IMG/VR virus record: IMGVR_UViG_3300025072_000042
Span: 1-25,578 of that record
Reading direction: 5' to 3' (one strand)
Source: a virus
Length of the DNA: 25,578 bases
The position numbers and the translations under genes were made by a program. The notes beneath the pieces were generated by a model, which did not search any database, was not told the origin of the DNA, and saw only the letters and a program-made list of their open reading frames with translations. This document shows positions 3,401-20,102 of the stretch, one piece after another. How positions within the stretch are numbered: position 1 is the stretch's first letter; every line of letters begins with the position of its first letter.

Positions 3401-3572
3401 GGATTATCCCCCTTTCATCTTTTCGCTTGGTAATCTTGAACCCTTCACACTTGAGAAAATATACGGAGGCACGTAACGAAGGAGTGCCGTACTTGATACA
3501 GGCTTCTGCATCTGTAAGTTCTTCGCCTCTGAGAAGAGCGTTCCCTATTATAAAATTATGCACATCAAACAC
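3369..3572 (-). CDS. Winged helix-turn-helix protein, 67 aa
   Basis: GTG 3572 has AGGGG seven bases upstream; a TTG one codon earlier is possible. The sequence reads as a compact winged helix: helix region NFIIGNALLRGEELTDAEAC, recognition-helix region YGTPSLRASVYFLKCEGF, then a wing KRKDERGIIHYKL. This layout (L-x-EA ... G-x-x-x-L-x-x-x-v-x-x-L-r-x-x-G-x-x-I) resembles the small phage HTH family I associate with PF14090. It overlaps the helicase stop by 8 bp and the resolvase-like gene by 32 bp. If the frameshift model for the next gene is right, its product would also exist as an HTH-nuclease fusion. The likely role is DNA binding in replication or recombination control. Confidence 0.7.
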   Translation of the reverse strand: MFDVHNFIIGNALLRGEELTDAEACIKYGTPSLRASVYFLKCEGFKITKRKDERGIIHYKLKERPKR

Positions 3573-4890
3573 CAATCAACCCCTGCGAAATTGCATCTGT
3601 AGTGGCCATTTCAGGTGTTTCATAAAATTTACACCTGTCACCTAATATCCCTACATGCGCACTGCCGGGATTACCATATCTATTCTTACCCAGGATAAGT
3701 TCAACACTGTTCTTACTTGCTGATTCATCTGTAGGGTTCTTTGCATATGGGTAATGCGTAAACATTACCATCTCCGCGTCCTGTTCTATAGAGCCTGAGT
3801 CACGTAAGTCTGAGAGCACAGGCCTGCCTGACTGTCGCATTTCAATCTTTCTATTCAACTGCGATACGGCTATCACACAGAGGTCCAGTGTCTTGGCTGT
3901 CCATTTATATTTTCGCATTACAGTATCAATGGCAACCTTTCTGTCGTCTTCGCAGCCCCTGACATTGATAAGGCCTATATAATCATCAATCACAACGTCA
4001 GGCTTAATCCGTTTAATCTCTGCAAGGGTACCGTCAAGGTCCATAATATTATCATACATTATAAGGTTCTTGTACTTCTTGGTAAGCCTGGATGTCATTC
4101 CTTCCCATTCTTGCAAATCACTTTCACTCATGTTGGTCCTGATTCGGGAATAAGTTAATGACTTGGACTCGATAACGAAAAGCTTTTTCATCATCTCCTC
4201 GTTGGTCATCTCCCTGTTGAATACTAACACGCGGTGACCGTTACCAGATAAGAGGCTAACCATATTGATAATGAGTGTCGTTTTGAATTGACCTGGCCTA
4301 CCGGCCACCACGCTAATTTCTCCCCTTGTCATACCCCCGGTAAGGTTGTCAAGGGCGCCTAAGCCGAATTTAATTACATTGGAACCACCTGACATAACAT
4401 TCTCGGTGGTACTTGCTATAAGATTGGATATGTCAAATCCTCCAGAGGGTCTAGACCGCAGAATACTGTCAAATCTTTCCTGTATGTCACGTATGGCATT
4501 TATACCCTTGTATGCAGGGTCGTCAATGGAGTCTTTAATTTTAACAGATGCCCTGACACATTCCCTCAACAACCATTTATCCACTATCTCACTGGCATGT
4601 GCGTTTAAATTTCCTGTCGTATACACATCATCAAGCAGTCCTGTCAGGTAGTACCTGATGTCGTCCCGCTTTGCAGTTGGAAGTTCGGCACACAGGGTCA
4701 TAATATCTATTGCCCTGTCATTCTTACGTAGTGCAGTAATGGTTCTCCATATTGTGCGATGGTCCTGCGAGTAGAACATGCTTGGCGAATGAATGTGCTT
4801 GGACGCTTCTTCGTATTTTTCAGGGTCTGAGAGAACCTGCCCTATGACAGACTTCTCCATCTCCAGGTCGTGAGGGTACGCCTTAGGCAT
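3565..4890 (-). CDS. DnaB-type replicative helicase
   Basis: The 441-aa protein matches DnaB in length and motif order. The N-terminal helical domain (residues 1-105) is followed by a linker. The RecA-like core has Walker A GRPGQFKTT (197-205), NREM with catalytic Glu (225-228), Walker B PDVVIDDY (297-304), SQLNR (343-347) and DLRDSGSIEQDAE (361-373), typical of DnaB and gp4 helicases. It unwinds the fork 5' to 3' as a hexamer and would recruit host primase and polymerase; no primase, loader or polymerase is seen nearby. The ATG overlaps the preceding MazG-like gene by 8 bp. This is the central replication gene of the block. Confidence 0.95.
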   Translation of the reverse strand: MPKAYPHDLEMEKSVIGQVLSDPEKYEEASKHIHSPSMFYSQDHRTIWRTITALRKNDRAIDIMTLCAELPTAKRDDIRYYLTGLLDDVYTTGNLNAHASEIVDKWLLRECVRASVKIKDSIDDPAYKGINAIRDIQERFDSILRSRPSGGFDISNLIASTTENVMSGGSNVIKFGLGALDNLTGGMTRGEISVVAGRPGQFKTTLIINMVSLLSGNGHRVLVFNREMTNEEMMKKLFVIESKSLTYSRIRTNMSESDLQEWEGMTSRLTKKYKNLIMYDNIMDLDGTLAEIKRIKPDVVIDDYIGLINVRGCEDDRKVAIDTVMRKYKWTAKTLDLCVIAVSQLNRKIEMRQSGRPVLSDLRDSGSIEQDAEMVMFTHYPYAKNPTDESASKNSVELILGKNRYGNPGSAHVGILGDRCKFYETPEMATTDAISQGLIGV

Positions 4891-6447: not shown

Positions 6448-7197
6448 TTAGTCTCCTTCTACTTTCTTTATTGTGTTAATACCGCCACCACATACATCGT
6501 AGTAACCGCAGTACTTTTCATTACATTCCCAGGCGTACACAGGCGCAAATCCAAGCTTAATAGGGGGTATCCCCTTGCTTAAAGCATCTTTAACTTGCGT
6601 CCAGTATTCTTTGGCCTGACCAACGTAATCCAAATCTATTTCTACTTCTCTCATTGAGCTATCATCTTTTTTATAGTAAGTAATTCTCAGGCCTTTTAGT
6701 TCCCTGTTATAATACTCCTCATACCACAAACCATAGGTGCCAATCTGAAGTGCATAGTTCTCAGAGCCAGCAATACCTTTACCCTCCCTACCGAACATTG
6801 ACTTCCACTTCCATGCCCCGCAGGTCTTAATATCATACAGCACATCCTGAGAGATGAAGGCGCAGTCTATAAAGCCTTTAACACCGTATGTATCCAGAAT
6901 AATTTCCTTTTCAATAAAAATAGGCTCACCGTTCACCTTAGCCCACCATTCAATGGATTCTTGTATATCGGTATGAACCACATCGCCAAGCCGGAACAGC
7001 CTTAAGGTGTCCGAACTTGGCGTCTCTGGTTCTTCGCGGTCTATTGCGTGGAAATAATGCTTACGGGCACAAAGCCCTGATTGGCTTGAATGAAACCATC
7101 TGTCCTCACCTCTGTAGCGTATATCCATTTTACGCTCATTGAGATGGAGGATGTACTTATCGTATATGTCTCTAAGCAGTCCGCCCTTGTGTGCCAA
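6448..7197 (-). CDS. Cas4/RecB-like PD-(D/E)XK exonuclease with Fe-S cluster cysteines
   Basis: TTG 7197 is supported by GGGAG five bases upstream. The 249-aa protein has the full RecB/Cas4 motif set: GDVVHTDIQ (H75), GFIDCAF (D111), YDIKT (D122, K124) and QIGTYGLWY (Q151, Y155). Cys43 (GLCARK) and a C-terminal trio C225, C230, C236 (ECNEKYCGYYDVC) reproduce the 1+3 cysteine arrangement that holds a 4Fe-4S cluster in Cas4, AddB and related phage nucleases. It would degrade DNA ends to give 3' or 5' tails for the annealing protein encoded next. No cas genes or arrays are nearby, so a phage recombination role is more likely than spacer acquisition. Overlap with the regulator gene is 26 bp. Confidence 0.88.
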   Translation of the reverse strand: MAHKGGLLRDIYDKYILHLNERKMDIRYRGEDRWFHSSQSGLCARKHYFHAIDREEPETPSSDTLRLFRLGDVVHTDIQESIEWWAKVNGEPIFIEKEIILDTYGVKGFIDCAFISQDVLYDIKTCGAWKWKSMFGREGKGIAGSENYALQIGTYGLWYEEYYNRELKGLRITYYKKDDSSMREVEIDLDYVGQAKEYWTQVKDALSKGIPPIKLGFAPVYAWECNEKYCGYYDVCGGGINTIKKVEGD

Positions 7198-7384
7198 GCC
7201 TTCTCCCGCGCGGTTTTAGAACTTTACTACCTTCTCTGTTGTTGTAGTCACTGAGAAGTATGTTTAGGGTTGATGTTATAGTCGTACCTTTAATGGAACA
7301 GAGGGACTTGAACACGTCCCAGGTGTCGTTGTCTGTTCTAAAAGAGACTGTCTTAGTAAATGGTAATTCTGACAAATTGGACAT
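7172..7384 (-). CDS. Ribbon-helix-helix DNA-binding regulator, 70 aa
   Basis: This is the first gene of the left block, with AAGGTG six bases before ATG 7384 and a promoter-like pair upstream. Residues about 9-48 (FTKTVSFRTDNDTWDVFKSL, then KGTTITSTLNILLSDYNNR) fit an RHH fold: one strand with alternating residues, then two helices. The C-terminal tail is basic (KPRGRRLGTQGR) and overlaps the exonuclease gene. RHH proteins bind operators as dimers and often repress their own operon. The palindromic sites at 7501-7539 and 7611-7629 upstream are possible targets, as are the matching sites at 16318-16416. The regulatory role is inferred from the fold and position. Confidence 0.75.
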   Translation of the reverse strand: MSNLSELPFTKTVSFRTDNDTWDVFKSLCSIKGTTITSTLNILLSDYNNREGSKVLKPRGRRLGTQGRTA

Positions 7385-7426
7385 TTATTTCACCTTCTTT
7401 CGTTTTTCGCCTGTCAGCCTATTCGT

Positions 7427-7456
7427 AATCTAAACCGATTTGAACATAGCAAACAA
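7427..7456 (-). promoter_or_regulatory. Leftward sigma70-like promoter of the DNA-metabolism operon
   Basis: On the minus strand TTGTTT (7456-7451), an 18-bp spacer and TAGATT (7432-7427) lie about 43 bp upstream of ATG 7384, leaving a leader of roughly 36 nt that contains the SD. The same -10 hexamer TAGATT occurs in the rightward promoter at 16712. Confidence 0.55.
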
Positions 7457-7500
7457 GCTTTTTTTTATTTATTTTTCTATGTCTATCTTATATATATATA

Positions 7501-7539
7501 AACCTATAGTCTACAGGTACAGTCTTATATCTATAGGTT
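7501..7539. repeat. 9-bp inverted repeat in the left control region (possible terminator or operator)
   Basis: AACCTATAG (7501-7509) and CTATAGGTT (7531-7539) are perfect arms with a 21-nt spacer. On the minus strand the stem is followed by an alternating TA run, so weak termination of the transcript arriving from 7636 is possible. The sequence TATATAAACCTA at 7495-7506 is repeated exactly at 16577-16588 in the other control region. Confidence 0.5.
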
Positions 7540-7549
7540 ACATATGTAT

Positions 7550-7570
7550 CTATGTCTATGTCTATGTCTA
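7550..7570. repeat. Tandem hexamer CTATGT x3 plus CTA
   Basis: Three perfect copies of CTATGT followed by CTA lie in the 251-bp intergenic gap 7385-7635. The gap otherwise holds an AT-rich stretch at 7457-7500, the 9-bp inverted repeat and one operator-like palindrome. No ORF is visible there. Confidence 0.6.
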
Positions 7571-7610
7571 AAGAAGAGAATAGACCACGAAGAACCAGCA
7601 AATGAGGTAA

Positions 7611-7629
7611 TACTTGTATTATACAACTA
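7611..7629. promoter_or_regulatory. Operator-like palindrome (left copy of the TTGTAT/ATACAA family)
   Basis: TACTTGTAT-T-ATACAACTA, with 8 of 9 arm positions matching, lies just beyond the stop of the 111-aa gene. It has the same core as three copies in 16318-16416. It probably binds a phage or host dimeric regulator. Confidence 0.6.
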
Positions 7630-7635
7630 TTATTA

Positions 7636-11072: not shown

Positions 11073-12160
11073 ATTCTGACCTTCCTGATGAGGTCCATAA
11101 AATCATCTTCGTCCTGGCACTGATACATCTTACCAATAAACGCATCTCGCCATGACATTAAATCGGTTTTCCCCGAACCTAACGAATTATTAAGGTACAG
11201 TTCCACATCATATATATCCTCGTCGTCCAAACCATATCTGGTGTCCAAACAGTTGAACCAGTAAAGTTTTCTCACATACCTGGAAGCATTACATAAAACC
11301 TCTATACCATCAGCGTCACCAAAGAACACTACTACCCTACTCTTCCATCTCATCCAGTGACCCAGTCTCCATTCCATGGAATATATATCTGCATGGTGTG
11401 AGATATAATCACAGGTATCTTCCAGCGGTAAATCTTCATATCTGCTGGTTTTAGGGTTCATCCGGGCTGTCATGCGGGCATTAGGTGCCGCGTAAATCTC
11501 CACATCATTAAGTTTTAAGGCCGCAGTGGCAATACCACTAAAGAAAGTGGCCTGACGGCTACAACTAGGACTATTATCAAGAACCAGCACAAGCCTTTCC
11601 TTTTCATAGTCAACCTTGCACTTGTTTATAGGCTTACGTGTGCATGACCTGTAAAGTAAGTCTTCCATATACCATTCATCGTCACCAGGTACAGGTTCAC
11701 CTGTTAAATCTTCAGCAATCTTGGCAAACACATTGGCAATAGCGTTATTAAGCCTCTTCTTTTTGATATGTTTTATAATAAAAGCTGGGTCAGTAGTATC
11801 CTTGTTGAGTTCCCACTCAGCCACACCCTCGTCCAAACGCATACGCCTGTTCATGTCCCAGTGTTCGTCACGCCAGCTTAGAGACTCCCTGGTAAAACCA
11901 CCAACACCCTCATGAAAGCTTGTAATAGGTTTTATTTCCATATCCATATTCACAGGTGGTAAGGGAGACGTAGGTATACCTTGAGAATTAGTGCCTGTGT
12001 AGAAATTTACAATGTTGGATTGCTGAGAGGCTTCCTGAGTTTTATTTGCTGGACCATCCATTGAATTTCCAGGTTCACCCTCGTCACTTGGTATATTGGG
12101 CTTGGAATCCTGAGATTCACCATCGTCCTGCCAATCACGCCATGTCCTGTTAATCGCCAT
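11069..12160 (-). CDS. VWA-domain protein, MoxR partner (CobT/YehP-like logic), 363 aa
   Basis: ATG 12160 (MAINRTWRDW) was chosen; the longer TTG start at 12181 lies inside the ATPase gene. Residues 1-80 look disordered (Asp/Ser/Gln/Pro-rich). Residues about 188-300 form a VWA-type domain: RLVLVLDNSPSCSRQATFFS holds the metal-site D-x-S-x-S (D195, S197, S199), and RVVVFFGDADGIEVL a later aspartate (D282). VWA proteins encoded after MoxR-type ATPases act as partners in chelatase- or chaperone-like machines. The 11-bp overlap with the ATPase gene indicates coupled expression. Its target in this phage is unknown. The domain assignment is fairly clear, the function is inferred. Confidence 0.8.
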   Translation of the reverse strand: MAINRTWRDWQDDGESQDSKPNIPSDEGEPGNSMDGPANKTQEASQQSNIVNFYTGTNSQGIPTSPLPPVNMDMEIKPITSFHEGVGGFTRESLSWRDEHWDMNRRMRLDEGVAEWELNKDTTDPAFIIKHIKKKRLNNAIANVFAKIAEDLTGEPVPGDDEWYMEDLLYRSCTRKPINKCKVDYEKERLVLVLDNSPSCSRQATFFSGIATAALKLNDVEIYAAPNARMTARMNPKTSRYEDLPLEDTCDYISHHADIYSMEWRLGHWMRWKSRVVVFFGDADGIEVLCNASRYVRKLYWFNCLDTRYGLDDEDIYDVELYLNNSLGSGKTDLMSWRDAFIGKMYQCQDEDDFMDLIRKVRI

Positions 12161-15790: not shown

Positions 15791-16117
15791 CTAGGCTTTT
15801 TTAGTCTTAGGCTGCGGCATATATAACTTAGGCTTACGCTCGTTACCTTTAGTATCTATGAAATGCCCTTTAGGGCAGTTCTTAGTATTAAAAGCTTCAA
15901 ACGCAGTTACATAGTTCTGCATTTCTGCAGTCTGTGCAATTCCGCCTCTGCCGCCGCCTTTGCCAGATGTAACATGCCCTTGGCTTTTAACTAGTTCAAT
16001 CGCGGCTATTACATCGGCTTTCTTCGTGCCGTTGCTAGGCTTGATTGTGCCAGCTTTTAAGCCAGTAAGCAGGTTGTCTACGTCTTTCTTAGGCAACTTT
16101 TTTACTATCTTATCCAT
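15791..16117 (-). CDS. Basic, possibly DNA-binding protein, 108 aa; first gene of the right leftward block
   Basis: ATG 16117 has no SD, but a promoter-like pair ends five bases before it, so a leaderless mRNA is possible. Residues 1-45 (VKKLPKKDVDNLLTGLKAGT, NGTKKADVIAAIELVKSQGH) form a two-helix pattern like SAP or HeH DNA-binding domains. A Gly-rich hinge (GKGGGRGG) leads to a second helix region and a basic, Pro-rich tail (ERKPKLYMPQPKTKKA). As first gene next to the control region it is likely early and possibly a regulator or nucleoid-type protein. The family assignment is not certain. Confidence 0.7.
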   Translation of the reverse strand: MDKIVKKLPKKDVDNLLTGLKAGTIKPSNGTKKADVIAAIELVKSQGHVTSGKGGGRGGIAQTAEMQNYVTAFEAFNTKNCPKGHFIDTKGNERKPKLYMPQPKTKKA

Positions 16118-16122
16118 ATCAT

Positions 16123-16151
16123 AACTTAATACCGCTCAATATTTCATGCAA
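16123..16151 (-). promoter_or_regulatory. Leftward promoter-like pair immediately upstream of the 108-aa gene
   Basis: On the minus strand TTGCAT (16151-16146), 17 bp, TAAGTT (16128-16123), then ATGAT and ATG 16117. Both hexamers match the consensus at about three of six positions, so it is weak alone. Its geometry equals that of the promoter at 16689-16717. Confidence 0.4.
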
Positions 16152-16189
16152 GCAATATACTAAAACAAGCAAGTGGCGTACATGTAAAC

Positions 16190-16220
16190 GAGCATCACTT
16201 TCTTTCTTGAAGTGATGTTC
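16190..16220. repeat. Hairpin with 11-bp stem in the control region
   Basis: GAGCATCACTT (16190-16200) pairs with AAGTGATGTTC (16210-16220), with one G-T pair and a 9-nt loop. ATGCTC at 16223-16228 can pair alternatively with GAGCAT. No T-run follows on either strand in the required place, so it is not a standard terminator. Confidence 0.55.
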
Positions 16221-16317
16221 TTATGCTCAAAAAAGATAGACATACATTAGAAGGGCGGAGGGGTAGGCGTATCTATAGAGTGTTATATGAGTAGACATAA
16301 TATATGTTATGCGCAAT

Positions 16318-16336
16318 CCCTTGTAGAATACAACCA
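16318..16336. promoter_or_regulatory. Operator-like palindrome, copy 1 (degenerate)
   Basis: CCCTTGTAG-A-ATACAACCA: the right arm matches the other copies and the left arm has diverged. It belongs to the TTGTAT/ATACAA family. Confidence 0.5.
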
Positions 16337-16341
16337 TTCTA

Positions 16342-16360
16342 ATTGAGATTGAATCTCAAT
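16342..16360. promoter_or_regulatory. Second-type perfect palindrome, 19 bp
   Basis: ATTGAGATT-G-AATCTCAAT has perfect 9-bp arms with one central base. It is the same overall length as the TTGTAT family but a different sequence, and it sits between copies 1 and 2. A separate dimeric regulator is likely. Confidence 0.6.
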
Positions 16361-16370
16361 ACCAACTACA

Positions 16371-16389
16371 TAGTTGTATAATACAACTA
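16371..16389. promoter_or_regulatory. Operator-like palindrome, copy 2 (perfect)
   Basis: TAGTTGTAT-A-ATACAACTA, 9-bp perfect arms. An extra half-site ATACAACTA at 16391-16399 starts 10 bp after the right arm (16381), that is, one helical turn away. Confidence 0.7.
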
Positions 16390-16397
16390 TATACAAC

Positions 16398-16416
16398 TAG
16401 TTGTATAATACAACCA
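16398..16416. promoter_or_regulatory. Operator-like palindrome, copy 3
   Basis: TAGTTGTAT-A-ATACAACCA, 8 of 9 arm positions match. With the half-site at 16391 it also forms the perfect palindrome ATACAACTAGTTGTAT (16391-16406). Copies 2 and 3 are 27 bp apart centre to centre. Confidence 0.7.
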
Positions 16417-16497
16417 GTTTCCCAACTAAGCTATTCCTAACGAAAACGCAGGCGACCGGCGTATACGGCGCATAAAAGGCTCACACACATTGTATAG

Positions 16498-16519
16498 AAT
16501 TTTTTTGAAATTTTTTTGA
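16498..16519. repeat. Tandem 11-bp T-tract repeat (AATTTTTTTGA x2)
   Basis: Two identical AATTTTTTTGA units lie side by side at an 11-bp period. Phased A/T tracts bend DNA and are common near origins and strong promoters. Confidence 0.8.
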
Positions 16520-16568
16520 ATCGACCCCCACTTGATTTTCTATTCCATTTTTTGCAATTTGCACCAGT

Positions 16569-16644
16569 ATATAAGATATATAAACCTACATCTATATTCT
16601 ACATACTTCCATTTACTACTATACCTATAGATATAAGATATATA
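16569..16644. repeat. 14-bp direct repeat in an AT-rich stretch
   Basis: ATATAAGATATATA occurs at 16569-16582 and 16631-16644. The interval also carries TATATAAACCTA (16577-16588), exactly repeated at 7495-7506, and ACCTATAG near 16623, related to the arms of the 7501-7539 repeat. Confidence 0.75.
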
Positions 16645-16671
16645 TGGACACACAGAATAGAATTATAGACC

Positions 16672-16680
16672 TGTGGATAC
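16672..16680 (-). promoter_or_regulatory. DnaA-box-like site
   Basis: TGTGGATAC differs only at its last base from TGTGGATAA, the complement of the consensus DnaA box TTATCCACA. Only one such site was noticed, so it could be chance. Confidence 0.35.
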
Positions 16681-16688
16681 ATTCTACC

Positions 16689-16717
16689 TTGATTCTTACA
16701 ATTTTACCATTTAGATT
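16689..16717 (+). promoter_or_regulatory. Rightward sigma70-like promoter, possibly giving a leaderless mRNA
   Basis: TTGATT (16689-16694), a 17-bp spacer and TAGATT (16712-16717) are followed by only five bases before ATG 16723. Transcription would start at or next to the ATG, and no SD is present, so a leaderless transcript is suggested. Confidence 0.55.
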
Positions 16718-16722
16718 GCCGT

Positions 16723-16923
16723 ATGCCTACAAAGGGCTCGGAAAAGAAGTTGGCACAGAAGTACTGTTCCAATTGGGTCAGAGGCAACTGCATCGGCAGA
16801 ATTATTAAATATGAGGACGGAATGACAAAAATATGGTTAGATGAGGAACTTGCGGACAAGGAATGCATTATAGACTCAGGTTGCTACTTTTTTGAAGATT
16901 ACGTAAGGCCGGCTATAAAATGA
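16723..16923 (+). CDS. Small Cys-rich protein, 66 aa; first gene of the rightward late block
   Basis: ATG 16723 lacks an SD but sits at the expected start point of the promoter upstream. The protein contains four cysteines: AQKYCSNWVRGNCIGR (two, 8 apart), KECIIDSGCYFFEDYV (two, 6 apart). The C-x7-C ... C-x5-C layout with a W-L-D-E centre (MTKIWLDEELADKEC) recalls small phage Cys-rich proteins encoded at the start of packaging operons, in my recollection. Metal binding is likely, function unknown. Its stop overlaps the next start (ATGA). Confidence 0.75.
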   Translation: MPTKGSEKKLAQKYCSNWVRGNCIGRIIKYEDGMTKIWLDEELADKECIIDSGCYFFEDYVRPAIK

Positions 16924-17214: not shown

Positions 17215-17976
17215 TTGTACGAAAAGTCTATAAATGACATTCCACATTACATTTTTGAGGATAAGAATGAATTTTATGAAAAATTTCCTAATGAACGTCT
17301 GTATGAGAATTGGAAGGAGGCTCCTGAAGGTGCGTGGACTGAAACAGATGACGGTCAGGTACTTGAAATCCTCAAAAGAGGCAAAATGCGCAATGGAGCA
17401 TCAAGGTCTCACACCGAATATGTTAGGACTCTCCTCGGTATGCGCATGGTCAGAGATAGCGTTGAACTCTCCGGTGAACCTCCTAAGCACATTTACTCCT
17501 TTTCCTGCAACAAATACCCTAAAAGGCGCAGGTTGGAAAGGGAACACTACAATGGACGTGAATTTATTTTTGCACAGTACATTGCCAAAGGAATGGACCC
17601 AATTGAGGCATACCTCAGTTCATTCCCTACAAACAAGAGGAAACATGCGGAACTCTCTGCAAAGCTTCTTCTTAAAACTAAGAGGGTTCAAAAGTTGATT
17701 ACACAGAAAATAGAAGAAAAGATGGATTCACTGGGTATTTCAGAGGATTGGCTGCTTGATGAGGTAAAGAACGTTATTAGTGGTAGGGATGCCCAGGACA
17801 ATAACAAGCTAAGGGCTCTGGAACTGTTAATGAAGGTCCGTGGCATGTTTCCCAGTTCTGAGCAGAAATCAGAATCATTGACCGTTTTTCAGGGTTTTAC
17901 ACCTGAACAGCTCAAGGCAATACAGAATGGTAAACCTAAAGCGTTAAAAACTGTGGATGCGGAAATAAGTCAGTGA
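17215..17976 (+). CDS. Small terminase subunit-like protein, 253 aa
   Basis: The start is TTG 17215, the first start-type codon after an in-frame TAA, with GGGAG about 10 bases upstream. The N-terminal 110 residues are unusual (charged, ending in a Cys-Lys/Arg stretch SCNKYPKRRRLEREHYNGRE). Residues about 115-165 (REFIFAQYIAKGMDPIEAYL, NKRKHAELSAKLLLKTKRVQ, LITQKI) match the small-terminase HTH pattern: F-v-x-eYl ... A-x-x-A-g ... A...A-x-x-L-L-k-x-x-k-V-q-x-L-I. The C-terminal half has the expected helical oligomerisation region. TerS recognises phage DNA and feeds it to the large subunit encoded 0.4 kb downstream. Confidence 0.75.
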   Translation: MYEKSINDIPHYIFEDKNEFYEKFPNERLYENWKEAPEGAWTETDDGQVLEILKRGKMRNGASRSHTEYVRTLLGMRMVRDSVELSGEPPKHIYSFSCNKYPKRRRLEREHYNGREFIFAQYIAKGMDPIEAYLSSFPTNKRKHAELSAKLLLKTKRVQKLITQKIEEKMDSLGISEDWLLDEVKNVISGRDAQDNNKLRALELLMKVRGMFPSSEQKSESLTVFQGFTPEQLKAIQNGKPKALKTVDAEISQ

Positions 17977-18200: not shown

Positions 18201-18361
18201 TGCCTTATAAAAGAGTAGGGAAAACAGTTTATGTTAAAAAAGGCGGCAAGTGGAAAAAGAAGTCCACTACCAAGAGCGTAGCAAGTGCCAACCGCATGCT
18301 GCGCCTCCTGCGAGGCGTAAAGCACGGTTGGAAACCCACAGGTAGGCGTGCAAAACGTTAA
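18200..18361 (+). CDS. Small very basic protein, 53 aa
   Basis: ATG 18200 shares its A with the previous TAA (TAATG). The product begins MPYKRVGKTVYVKKGGKWKK and continues TTKSVASANRMLRLLRGVKH, ending GWKPTGRRAKR. Short proteins with the plan MPY-K-x-gk-x-v-y-v-k-k-GGKW-k ... a-x-s-A-x-x-x-l-R-L-L are common in phages in my recollection. It probably binds nucleic acid. It fills the 147-bp gap before the large terminase and overlaps that gene by 14 bp. Confidence 0.75.
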   Translation: MPYKRVGKTVYVKKGGKWKKKSTTKSVASANRMLRLLRGVKHGWKPTGRRAKR

Positions 18362-20036
18362 TGTCGAGCGTCTTACAAAAAAGGCGAAGGAAGATAAAGA
18401 GGCACCTTTGGAAGAAAAAGCAGAAGAAAAACAGGCACAAGAAGAAGAAAAAGTAGAAGAGTTTAATATTATACCGGCCGGTCTTGCAGACCGTGACCAA
18501 ATCCTCAATCGCTCATATGATGACCTACTTTACTTTGGTAGGGCATTTCTCCCTAAAGACTTTCTTAATAAGAGCAAATCACCTGAATTTCATAAACGCA
18601 TTGCCAAGAAGCTGATTAGTACCGTCCCAGGCGGCAGGATATGTAATATTCTTCCCAGGGGCTTTGGCAAGTCTGTAATGGCAAAATCGGCTATTATGCA
18701 TAAAATATGTTTCGCACCGCAGGGGGAGAGGCAGTTTGTTGCATGGGTTGCAGAGGAGCAGGGTCAGGCTATTGACCACCTCAAGTATATTAAGACCCAT
18801 ATTGAGTACAATGACATGATACGATACTATTTTGGCAACCTTGCCGGTGACGCTGTAGGTAACAGGTGGACCGAGAAGGATATTGTTACAGCTAAAGGTG
18901 ACAGGTTACTTGCTAAAGGCACAACTCAGAGGCTTAGGGGCCGTACTGAGATTGATGTACGATATACCGGTATTGTACTTGATGACTTTGAATCTGAATT
19001 AAACACTAAAACGCCTGATAGGCGGGACGAGATTAAGAAATGGGTAGTATCTACAGTATATCCTGCACTTGAGGAGACACCAGGTAACGAAGGCTGGATT
19101 TGGCTTATGGGCACAATTGTCCATTATGACAGTTTCCTGCAGATGGTTTATGAAGGGTTTAGCGATGCTGTGAAGAATGGTAACCCTTATCCTTGGAACG
19201 TTGAGTTTATTCGTGCCATGGATGATGGTAAGTCAATGTGGCCGGAACAGTTTTCCATGAAAAAGCTTGAGTCTAAGAGAAAAGAATTTATAGAAGCAGG
19301 CCTTGTTAACAAATTTAGTCAGGAGTACATGAATGATGCCAGAGACATTACTAACGCCGCGTTTAAAATTGACCGTGTCCAACACCACAGAATGTCTTTT
19401 AGGCGTGCTGGTAATTTCACTTATCTCATTGATGGCGACGACGCTATACCTGTTAACGTTTATCTTGGTGTCGATTTGGCTCATACTGCAACAGTGCGCT
19501 CAGACTTTCAAGTCATACTGGTGCTCGCTGTGGACTCAGAAGGGCACAGATACGTCCTAGACTATTTCCGTGAGAAGATACCTACATTTGATGTTCCTAA
19601 TGAAATTATTAAAATGGCAGAGAAGTACAGCCCTGTGCGTAGGGTTACCATTGAGACTGTGGCTGCCCAGGAGATGGTGAGGGATATGGTTGAACGTATC
19701 AGTTATGAACACAGGAGATTAATTCCAGGTATTTTCAAAGGTGTAAAACCTCCTCCAGGCATTAAGAAGGAGGATAGGCTTGAAACGGCATTAGGTCCTT
19801 TGATAAACGGCAAAAGGCTGTATATCAAAAAGAGTATGACAGAGATTGTTGATGAGCTGTTTGAGCACCCAAAGGCCAAACATGATGATATTTTAGACGC
19901 TTTATACTATGCCAACTACTATGCAAGGCCTATTCGTAGTGGAAGAACAGACGTGGCAAATCTAGAAGAATTGGTAGAAAATCGTAAAAACCCCATCAAA
20001 ACGACCTATAATTGGCTCACAGGCGCAAGAATATAG
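18348..20036 (+). CDS. terL: Large terminase subunit (packaging ATPase and nuclease), 562 aa
   Basis: The protein has the two-domain TerL plan. ATPase: Walker A LPRGFGKSVMAKS (102-114), VAWVAEEQGQA (131-141), Walker B GIVLDDFESE (208-217) and coupling motif LMGTIVHYDS (253-262). Nuclease: VYLGVDLAHT (D376), RRVTIETVAAQE (E436) and KHDDILDALYYANYY (D513, D514, D517), the RNase-H-like acidic triad. GTG 18348 follows AGGTAGG; the first 40 residues are a charged Lys/Glu-rich extension not needed for the fold. TerL cuts concatemers and pumps DNA into the head through the portal encoded next. It overlaps the 53-aa gene by 14 bp. Confidence 0.96.
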   Translation: MQNVNVERLTKKAKEDKEAPLEEKAEEKQAQEEEKVEEFNIIPAGLADRDQILNRSYDDLLYFGRAFLPKDFLNKSKSPEFHKRIAKKLISTVPGGRICNILPRGFGKSVMAKSAIMHKICFAPQGERQFVAWVAEEQGQAIDHLKYIKTHIEYNDMIRYYFGNLAGDAVGNRWTEKDIVTAKGDRLLAKGTTQRLRGRTEIDVRYTGIVLDDFESELNTKTPDRRDEIKKWVVSTVYPALEETPGNEGWIWLMGTIVHYDSFLQMVYEGFSDAVKNGNPYPWNVEFIRAMDDGKSMWPEQFSMKKLESKRKEFIEAGLVNKFSQEYMNDARDITNAAFKIDRVQHHRMSFRRAGNFTYLIDGDDAIPVNVYLGVDLAHTATVRSDFQVILVLAVDSEGHRYVLDYFREKIPTFDVPNEIIKMAEKYSPVRRVTIETVAAQEMVRDMVERISYEHRRLIPGIFKGVKPPPGIKKEDRLETALGPLINGKRLYIKKSMTEIVDELFEHPKAKHDDILDALYYANYYARPIRSGRTDVANLEELVENRKNPIKTTYNWLTGARI

Positions 20037-20049
20037 GAACTTTTTACCA

Positions 20050-20093
20050 TTAACCTCATTGTATGCCTTGACACATACAATATAACAGGTTAA
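20050..20093 (+). promoter_or_regulatory. Nested hairpin in the TerL-portal gap
   Basis: TTAACCT (20050-20056) pairs with AGGTTAA (20087-20093), and inside it ATTGTATG (20058-20065) with CATACAAT (20074-20081), with an 8-nt loop. The inner arms contain TTGTAT and ATACAA, the half-sites of the operator family, at a wider spacing. The stem overlaps the -35 and spacer of the portal promoter. Confidence 0.55.
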
Positions 20094-20096
20094 ATT
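20068..20096 (+). promoter_or_regulatory. Sigma70-like promoter of the portal/structural genes
   Basis: Perfect TTGACA (20068-20073), a 17-bp spacer and TAAATT (20091-20096), then six bases to ATG 20103. No SD is visible before the portal ATG, so a leaderless transcript is again suggested. Confidence 0.6.
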
Positions 20097-20102
20097 ACAT
20101 AT

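Follow-up and report, generated by a model that had tools for sequence, protein, structure and literature searches.

The 605-bp gap that separates the two divergent gene blocks of this virus genome contains an element of ~90 bp that is conserved across a phage family and is found again in chromosomes of the Marinimicrobia (SAR406). The gap may be a control region in which this element serves as a promoter-type signal shared by phage and host, beside hypervariable operators, an interpretation that is given an even chance of being correct. The element looks more like such a shared signal than like a proven replication origin, and the hosts of these phages would probably be Marinimicrobia bacteria.

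The window analysed here is the whole stretch of 25,578 nucleotides of the IMG/VR record IMGVR_UViG_3300025072_000042. The ORF map confirmed that the divergent gap described by an earlier, sequence-only reading of this DNA is real: it extends from 16118 to 16722 (33.6% GC) between a leftward and a rightward ORF, with leftward genes on its left side and rightward genes on its right side (Table 1). Since bases 1-938 are again rightward, gene orientation diverges once and converges once along the map. The rightward ORF at this left end (3-938) carries a HEAAH motif and is perhaps the end of the structural block, continued from beyond the contig edge. The same reading had noted a DnaB helicase without a visible initiator: the helicase matches PF03796 at E 8e-50, and no initiator was recognised among the proteins scanned, which comprise only part of the ORFs. 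The 66-aa protein encoded first on the right and its homologs share the cysteine pattern CxN...GxC.G followed by a later C and C..F, often open the structural block, and gave no Pfam or PHROG match. The true start of the large terminase is probably further right than the GTG listed at 18348, because two relatives (L005 and L006) carry in-frame stops near that position.

The two divergent promoters that had been proposed within the gap fared less well, as nine sigma-70-like matches were counted in 1.6 kb against 4.5 +/- 2.2 expected, none of them outstanding. Elsewhere, 31 of 77 rows have a TTGAC[AT] hexamer no more than 130 bases downstream of the stop codon of the large terminase, a raw count that includes many near-identical rows, and GGAGG-type ribosome sites precede several internal genes; both features fit a bacterial host. 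An archaeal promoter and host, considered for TATA-like boxes and for first genes devoid of ribosome sites, were set aside on account of these internal GGAGG-type sites and hexamers. Upstream of the portal gene of the window (20068-20102), a TTGACA is followed ~17 bases on by a TTAAAT-like box.

Table 1. Coordinates of the features discussed in the text, in window positions.
Feature	Position	Strand	Evidence or remark
DnaB-like helicase	3565..4890	-	PF03796/PF00772
Operator copy upstream of the ribbon-helix-helix-like gene 7172-7384	7613..7627	.	operator scan
First leftward gene, 108 aa, no assigned function	15791..16117	-	ORF; comparable ORF in the corresponding position of L006 (by eye)
Operator-like palindrome, diverged copy	16320..16334	.	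repeat and operator scans
Operator-like palindrome GTTGTATAATACAAC, exact	16373..16387	.	repeat and operator scans
Operator-like palindrome, exact second copy, 27 bp past the first	16400..16414	.	repeat and operator scans
Family-wide conserved element, ~90 bp	16424..16519	+	alignment A8, nhmmer, information profile, host copies
AAC box	16424-16426	+	part of conserved element
GC-rich tract	about 16452-16471	+	part of conserved element
AAAAGG	16474-16479	+	part of conserved element
CACACACATTGTA	16482-16494	+	part of conserved element
T-run	about 16500-16506	+	part of conserved element
Two tandem 11-bp T-tracts	16498..16519	+	first is the conserved T-run of the element; tandem is species-specific
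AT-rich leader of the rightward operon, including a 14-bp direct repeat	16520..16722	+	repeat scan; motifs shared with 7385-7635
DnaA-box-like GTATCCACA, one mismatch, chance level	16672..16680	-	likely the box of the sequence-only reading
First rightward gene, 66-aa small protein, four conserved cysteines	16723..16923	+	alignment A4
Terminase small subunit	17215..17976	+	phrog_51 E 2e-9; Terminase_2 E 0.0011, below its cut-off
Terminase large subunit	18348..20036	+	Terminase_6C

The conserved element is composed, in this order, of an AAC box, a near-constant spacing of ~50 nt ending in the GC-rich tract, ATAAAAGAC, ACACACATTGTA and a T-run. The GC tract is mostly G-rich on the rightward strand and C-rich in several clades. 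In the phage alignment, no dyad was found at this tract and no consensus RNA structure for the element (consensus energy 0 on both strands); the window gave no Rfam match. When the interior of the gap (about 16172-16695) was aligned with those of L005, L006 and L007, it was mainly the conserved block that was retained. A promoter of a single-subunit RNA polymerase, which the element resembles, was also considered and not retained; the corresponding model, PF00940, had no match in 10 genomes, although the control genomes were equally silent, so that this negative is no proof of absence. A second non-coding stretch of similar appearance, CAGGAGCC...GGTTTC.TGG...CACCCCGCCT, was seen by eye left of a diverged copy of the element in two loci, at about 1.7 kb in L071 and about 0.1 kb in L064.

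Relatives of the phage were collected by terminase searches of viral contigs, which yielded 7 related loci and then 80 of at least 534, and with a profile of the first rightward small protein, for which 80 of 272 loci were kept. In the genome collection, no relative was detected with the terminase profile. A tblastn search of 50,697 phage records with the portal, helicase and terminase returned only distant matches, all below 60% identity, and the AAA protein had no match. In each of five contigs (G002, G003, G008, G009 and G012, behind L036, L058, L146, L128 and L166), the two ends overlap over 77-426 bases at 95.7-100% identity, which makes these contigs complete circles with sizes of about 47-51 kb, although G002 and G003 showed no exact end repeat.

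With an iterated nhmmer profile, the element was detected in 103 of 151 distinct contigs (19 duplicate loci being left out), once per locus and never twice. One of these matches, L013, is a chance hit. It was kept in the iterated model and alignment, hence in the information profile and in the circle, DnaA-box, dyad, RNA-fold, host-array and host-placement analyses, and was left out of A8 and R1, the comparison of left and right pairs, the downstream-ORF counts, the weak-match count rows and the 102-locus comparison. Many of the 48 loci without an nhmmer match begin to the right of the element, and two of them, L064 and L071, hold the diverged copies seen by eye. L176 is among the nhmmer matches, and the filters were relaxed to place L183; the positions assigned to L067, L068, L074, L081, L087 and L179 come from weak or distant alignments and were not used. 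Two records longer than the genome unit contain the element twice, IMGVR_UViG_3300030101_002855 (63,940 bp, two copies) and IMGVR_UViG_3300030708_000851 (80,282 bp, two exact-pattern matches), and both are possibly assemblies running across two strains.

The exact core pattern occurs in 49 viral stretches, and the gene for the terminase small subunit follows on the same strand in 43 of 47 new loci; in the remaining 4, the sequence ends at most 1,466 bp downstream of the element. This association raises the question of whether the element is the packaging start, a cos or pac site read by the terminase, to which the GC-rich tract of either strand polarity with conserved boxes on both flanks could lend itself. 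Moreover, the first base of seven contigs falls inside the element or no more than about 36 bp from it, where the local density gives about 2 (hand estimate). Such a role is nevertheless very unlikely: the five circular genomes and several other contigs of 35-64 kb hold the element internally, in 19 of 21 left-arm loci the sequence continues for 1,500 bp beyond the gene start and so past the place expected for the element (the other 2 are cut), the GC tract lacks the two-fold symmetry expected of cos, and the copies standing before host genes do not fit a packaging start.

These host copies were met in a scan of the genome collection (84,980 species) with the exact pattern, which returned 7 contigs, 5 of them with the whole or nearly whole element. 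Four of these five are labelled Marinimicrobia; the fifth is labelled Anaerolineales, with a sequence identical to a Marinimicrobia copy. This Anaerolineales match (L282) repeats L285 and may be misbinned, and two further matches devoid of the GC tract (L284 and L286) look like chance. No ORF of eight query phage genomes matches the 7 contigs at E 1e-4. A sequence-only model built from 46 phage copies (R1) was run with the stricter filters of Infernal on two phyla. In the Marinimicrobia phylum, it found 94 matches (best 6.7e-14) distributed over 39 of 199 genomes, a tally that includes G028 and G029, which had been found by the motif itself; in the phylum of a Prevotella MAG, it found one match each in 3 of 198 genomes (best 2.7e-4). 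Genomes with a match contain 1-10 copies, located in contigs of up to 734 kb. Viruses have been reported in Marinimicrobia genomes (PMC4533152). No description of the element was found in the literature searched by topic, the motif sequence itself not serving as a query.

The position of these copies relative to host genes is what would be expected of a class of Marinimicrobia promoters. Among 55 distinct copies, 13 are too near an end; of the 42 assessed, 35 are followed by a co-oriented ORF and 4 by a convergent one, and 3 have no downstream ORF in reach. The co-oriented ORFs begin 8-384 bp downstream of the element (median 62), and the upstream ORF is divergent in only 7 cases. In two different Marinimicrobia MAGs (L287 and L288), the element is preceded by ~200 bases of non-coding DNA that look alike by eye and contain repeated CGTCAC motifs. 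The number of copies per host genome and the near-constant distance separating the AAC box from the core (about 50 nt) could also suit a site bound by an architectural or partition-type protein, having no part in transcription start, packaging or replication. This seems very doubtful in view of the placement bias directly upstream of co-oriented host ORFs.

A promoter-type signal is preferred because of this placement before host genes, the fixed orientation, the core followed by a T-run, and the variable operators alongside. According to this model, the gap would separate the early (leftward) block of a tailed phage from the structural (rightward) block, and the promoter-type element at the centre of the gap would point toward the terminase and structural genes. 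It would most likely be read by a dedicated factor, an alternative sigma factor or an activator of host or phage, and rightward transcription would start near the T-run. Several observations count against this model. The nearest downstream ORF of 102 phage loci is co-oriented in 54 and leftward, hence convergent, in 48 (ORFs of at least 60 aa, some possibly spurious), and in 29 of the 102 loci the end of a leftward ORF is no more than 160 bp away from the element, in 20 of them no more than 63 bp. In G010, G011 and G012, the adjoining leftward ORFs are conserved genes with ribosome sites, so that a rightward transcript would there be antisense at first. On the host side, 160 of the 199 Marinimicrobia-phylum genomes have no R1 match, the ORF reached downstream is convergent for 4 of the 39 copies that have one, and terminator-like strings are scarcely more frequent upstream (11) than downstream (7) of 48 copies. 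The element as a general host promoter was rejected, as 400 kb of G168:C1 contain one real copy and no excess of weaker matches.

The clustering of host copies, several of them near contig ends or tyrosine recombinases, is likewise unlike the prediction of a plain promoter, and it leads to the main rival, in which the element is a site-specific recombination or cassette site: a tyrosine recombinase would move arrays of element plus gene in the host, and the phages would carry one site. G083:C11 holds seven same-strand copies within 7 kb, most of them directly followed by one ORF; among the genes of this array are a glyoxalase, an amidohydrolase, a weakly lipocalin-like protein and an FAD oxidoreductase. 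Matches to PF00589 lie 0.34-0.53 kb upstream of the element in G200:C106, G167:C36 and G028:C6, where about 0.09 recombinases within 1 kb would be expected from a rough hand estimate (37 matches, 52 copies and 21.9 Mb in 12 host genomes). Furthermore, tRNA genes stand upstream of the element in L287 and, by eye, in L306, and 12 of the 94 host matches start less than 400 bp from the left end of a contig, right ends being known only in part. Nonetheless, a recombinase is that near in only 3 of the 52 copies of these 12 genomes, no phage integrase was matched in 7 phage genomes, 5 of them complete, and the phage alignment contains neither a dyad nor an attC-like consensus fold. Two phage loci, L054 and L057, also weigh against this rival, since the segment between the left gene and the GC tract differs although both left genes share 95% identity with one and the same query. 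On balance, a recombination or cassette site is judged improbable. An inverted-repeat fold of the integron attC kind was rejected for the phage alignment, on the grounds of the missing dyad and of the consensus energy of 0.

The tyrosine-recombinase ORFs concerned are those at 706-1818 in L369 and 659-1027 in L365 and the upstream ORF of L318, their Phage_integrase matches ending 0.34-0.53 kb upstream of the host copies. In L369, the order is recombinase, element and a winged-helix/HNH gene; defence-system models run against ten proteins matched only the HNH protein, weakly. The two interpretations could also be combined in a mobile control element of ~90 bp that occurs singly or in cassette-like arrays in Marinimicrobia, heads single genes, sometimes beside a tyrosine recombinase, and sits once per phage between the early and structural blocks; phage and host cassettes would then be controlled by one common factor or undergo exchange at a common site. 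This combined possibility is held to be unlikely.

The left half of the gap brings in the second component of the promoter-type interpretation. The claim of a divergent control region is supported by the joint presence of operators, a hypervariable left half and the conserved element. The operators are indeed there: the palindrome GTTGTATAATACAAC is exact at two places of the gap, and weaker copies occur once more within it and once outside, upstream of the gene at 7172-7384. An operator scan returned 9 matches (both strands counted, including one with three mismatches at 11770) against 1.16 expected, and the longest exact direct repeat of the gap, the 17 bp of the operator repeats, was reached in 0 of 500 shuffles. 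The product of 7172-7384 may be a regulator of the ribbon-helix-helix type; the protein family scans gave no family match for it. The operators of the left half would be bound by a lineage-specific repressor, here plausibly this ribbon-helix-helix-like protein. In L010 and L011, no such palindrome common to the gap and the regulator leader was found.

Regarding the phased 11-bp T-tracts described earlier, two tandem copies exist (16498-16508 and 16509-16519), but the related stretch at 16548 falls 47 bases after 16501 and hence outside the 11-bp register; an exact 11-periodic run of 12 bases arose in 0 of 500 shuffles. The 14-bp AT-rich direct repeat is present as described, at 16569-16582 and 16631-16644, and 3 of 500 shuffles produced a repeated 14-mer. 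The leader upstream of the ribbon-helix-helix-like gene (7385-7635) likewise contains AT-rich repeat motifs. The search for the same repeats in relatives was negative for most of them: among the 102 phage loci, operators, tandem T-tracts and the DnaA-like box are confined to the window, L003 and L004, the last two being of the same species as the window, and the operators were accordingly rejected as a family-wide feature. The 14-bp repeat occurs at least twice in these three and in 6 other loci of the 102.

By sequence comparison, the left half of the gap appears as a hypervariable segment, which holds the palindromes in the window. In 78 pairs compared left and right of the GC tract, 14 have at least 90% identity on the right with less than 70% on the left, none shows the reverse, and 16 are high on both sides. 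The pairs L156/L176 and L158/L176 lean the opposite way (left 0.87, right 0.62).

The sequence-only reading had seen in this gap the features of a replication origin. The features it named give no support to this claim, and nothing observed refutes it either. The near-consensus DnaA box is at chance level, as the gap contains 0 exact TTWTNCACA and 3 one-mismatch matches versus 2.1 expected; the cluster of boxes above chance by which a DnaA-dependent origin would be known is absent from the gap of the window. Cumulative GC skew, proposed as a check, is indeed lowest close to the element, at a distance of about 1 kb or less, in all 5 complete relatives. Its maximum, however, coincides with the junction where the gene blocks converge instead of the antipode: it is located at 34.2-36.8 kb of the rotated map, 9.2-10.4 kb past an antipode at 24.5-26.4 kb. 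The pattern of a bidirectional fork, a minimum at the origin with a maximum near the antipode, was thus found in none of the five. A maximum at the convergent junction means that the skew follows the gene strand and cannot vote for an origin, and gene orientation alone would suffice to place the minimum at the gap.

The element might still be a phage replication origin, possibly opened by transcription through it by analogy with the lactococcal c2-type phages. The map with a single divergent gap, the AT-rich surroundings with their T-run, the skew minimum and the presence of DnaB beside no recognised initiator are all compatible with it, and a tested origin lies in the same kind of gap in the lactococcal Ceduovirus (PMC7150918). 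Exact DnaA boxes are also in excess over 86 family sequences, with 16 against 6.1 +/- 2.4 in shuffles. Yet 11 of these 16 share a single position immediately behind the T-run in some members of the family, the window having none, and chromosomal copies before host genes would be unexpected for a phage origin. Together with the position of the skew maximum, this makes an origin quite unlikely, and the shared promoter-type signal is retained as the preferred interpretation.

If this interpretation is right, the element offers a sequence handle on a large family of uncultured ocean phages, pointing to a SAR406 host. It would further mark the possible start of the structural programme and represent a regulatory signal, or an exchange site, common to a phage and the chromosome of its host. 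The analysis of skew has a more general implication, namely that a GC-skew minimum in a divergent phage gap is not readable as an origin without the antipode test.

Among known systems, integron cassette arrays are made of same-strand units of a site and a single gene, with a tyrosine recombinase. One host genome has a comparable same-strand array of site plus single gene, and a tyrosine recombinase is near some copies; unlike integron sites, the element is conserved in sequence and not in fold, it precedes the gene, and many copies are solitary. Temperate phages of the lambda type have palindromic operators between two divergent blocks, variable between relatives. The window likewise has palindromic operators between divergent blocks that vary between relatives, but it differs in having a putative repressor only, no integrase match in complete relatives, and an element shared with the host phylum.

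Replication origins provide two further points of comparison. Cluster A mycobacteriophages have RNA-based prophage origins near parABS, shown by plasmids; like the phage of the window, they are without a recognised initiator, and their replication is linked to a transcribed non-coding region (PMC7157519). Unlike these plasmid-demonstrated origins, the gap of the window is known from its sequence. The origin of Ceduovirus (c2-type) phages is a non-coding gap between divergent blocks, flanked by early promoters, and sustains plasmid replication without further phage functions (PMC7150918). The gap of the window is also non-coding and lies between two divergent blocks; it differs in being described from nucleotide data alone and in that its conserved element is also present in host chromosomes. 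Moreover, the origins of Ceduovirus are of three mutually dissimilar types, whereas here one core has been kept across the family.
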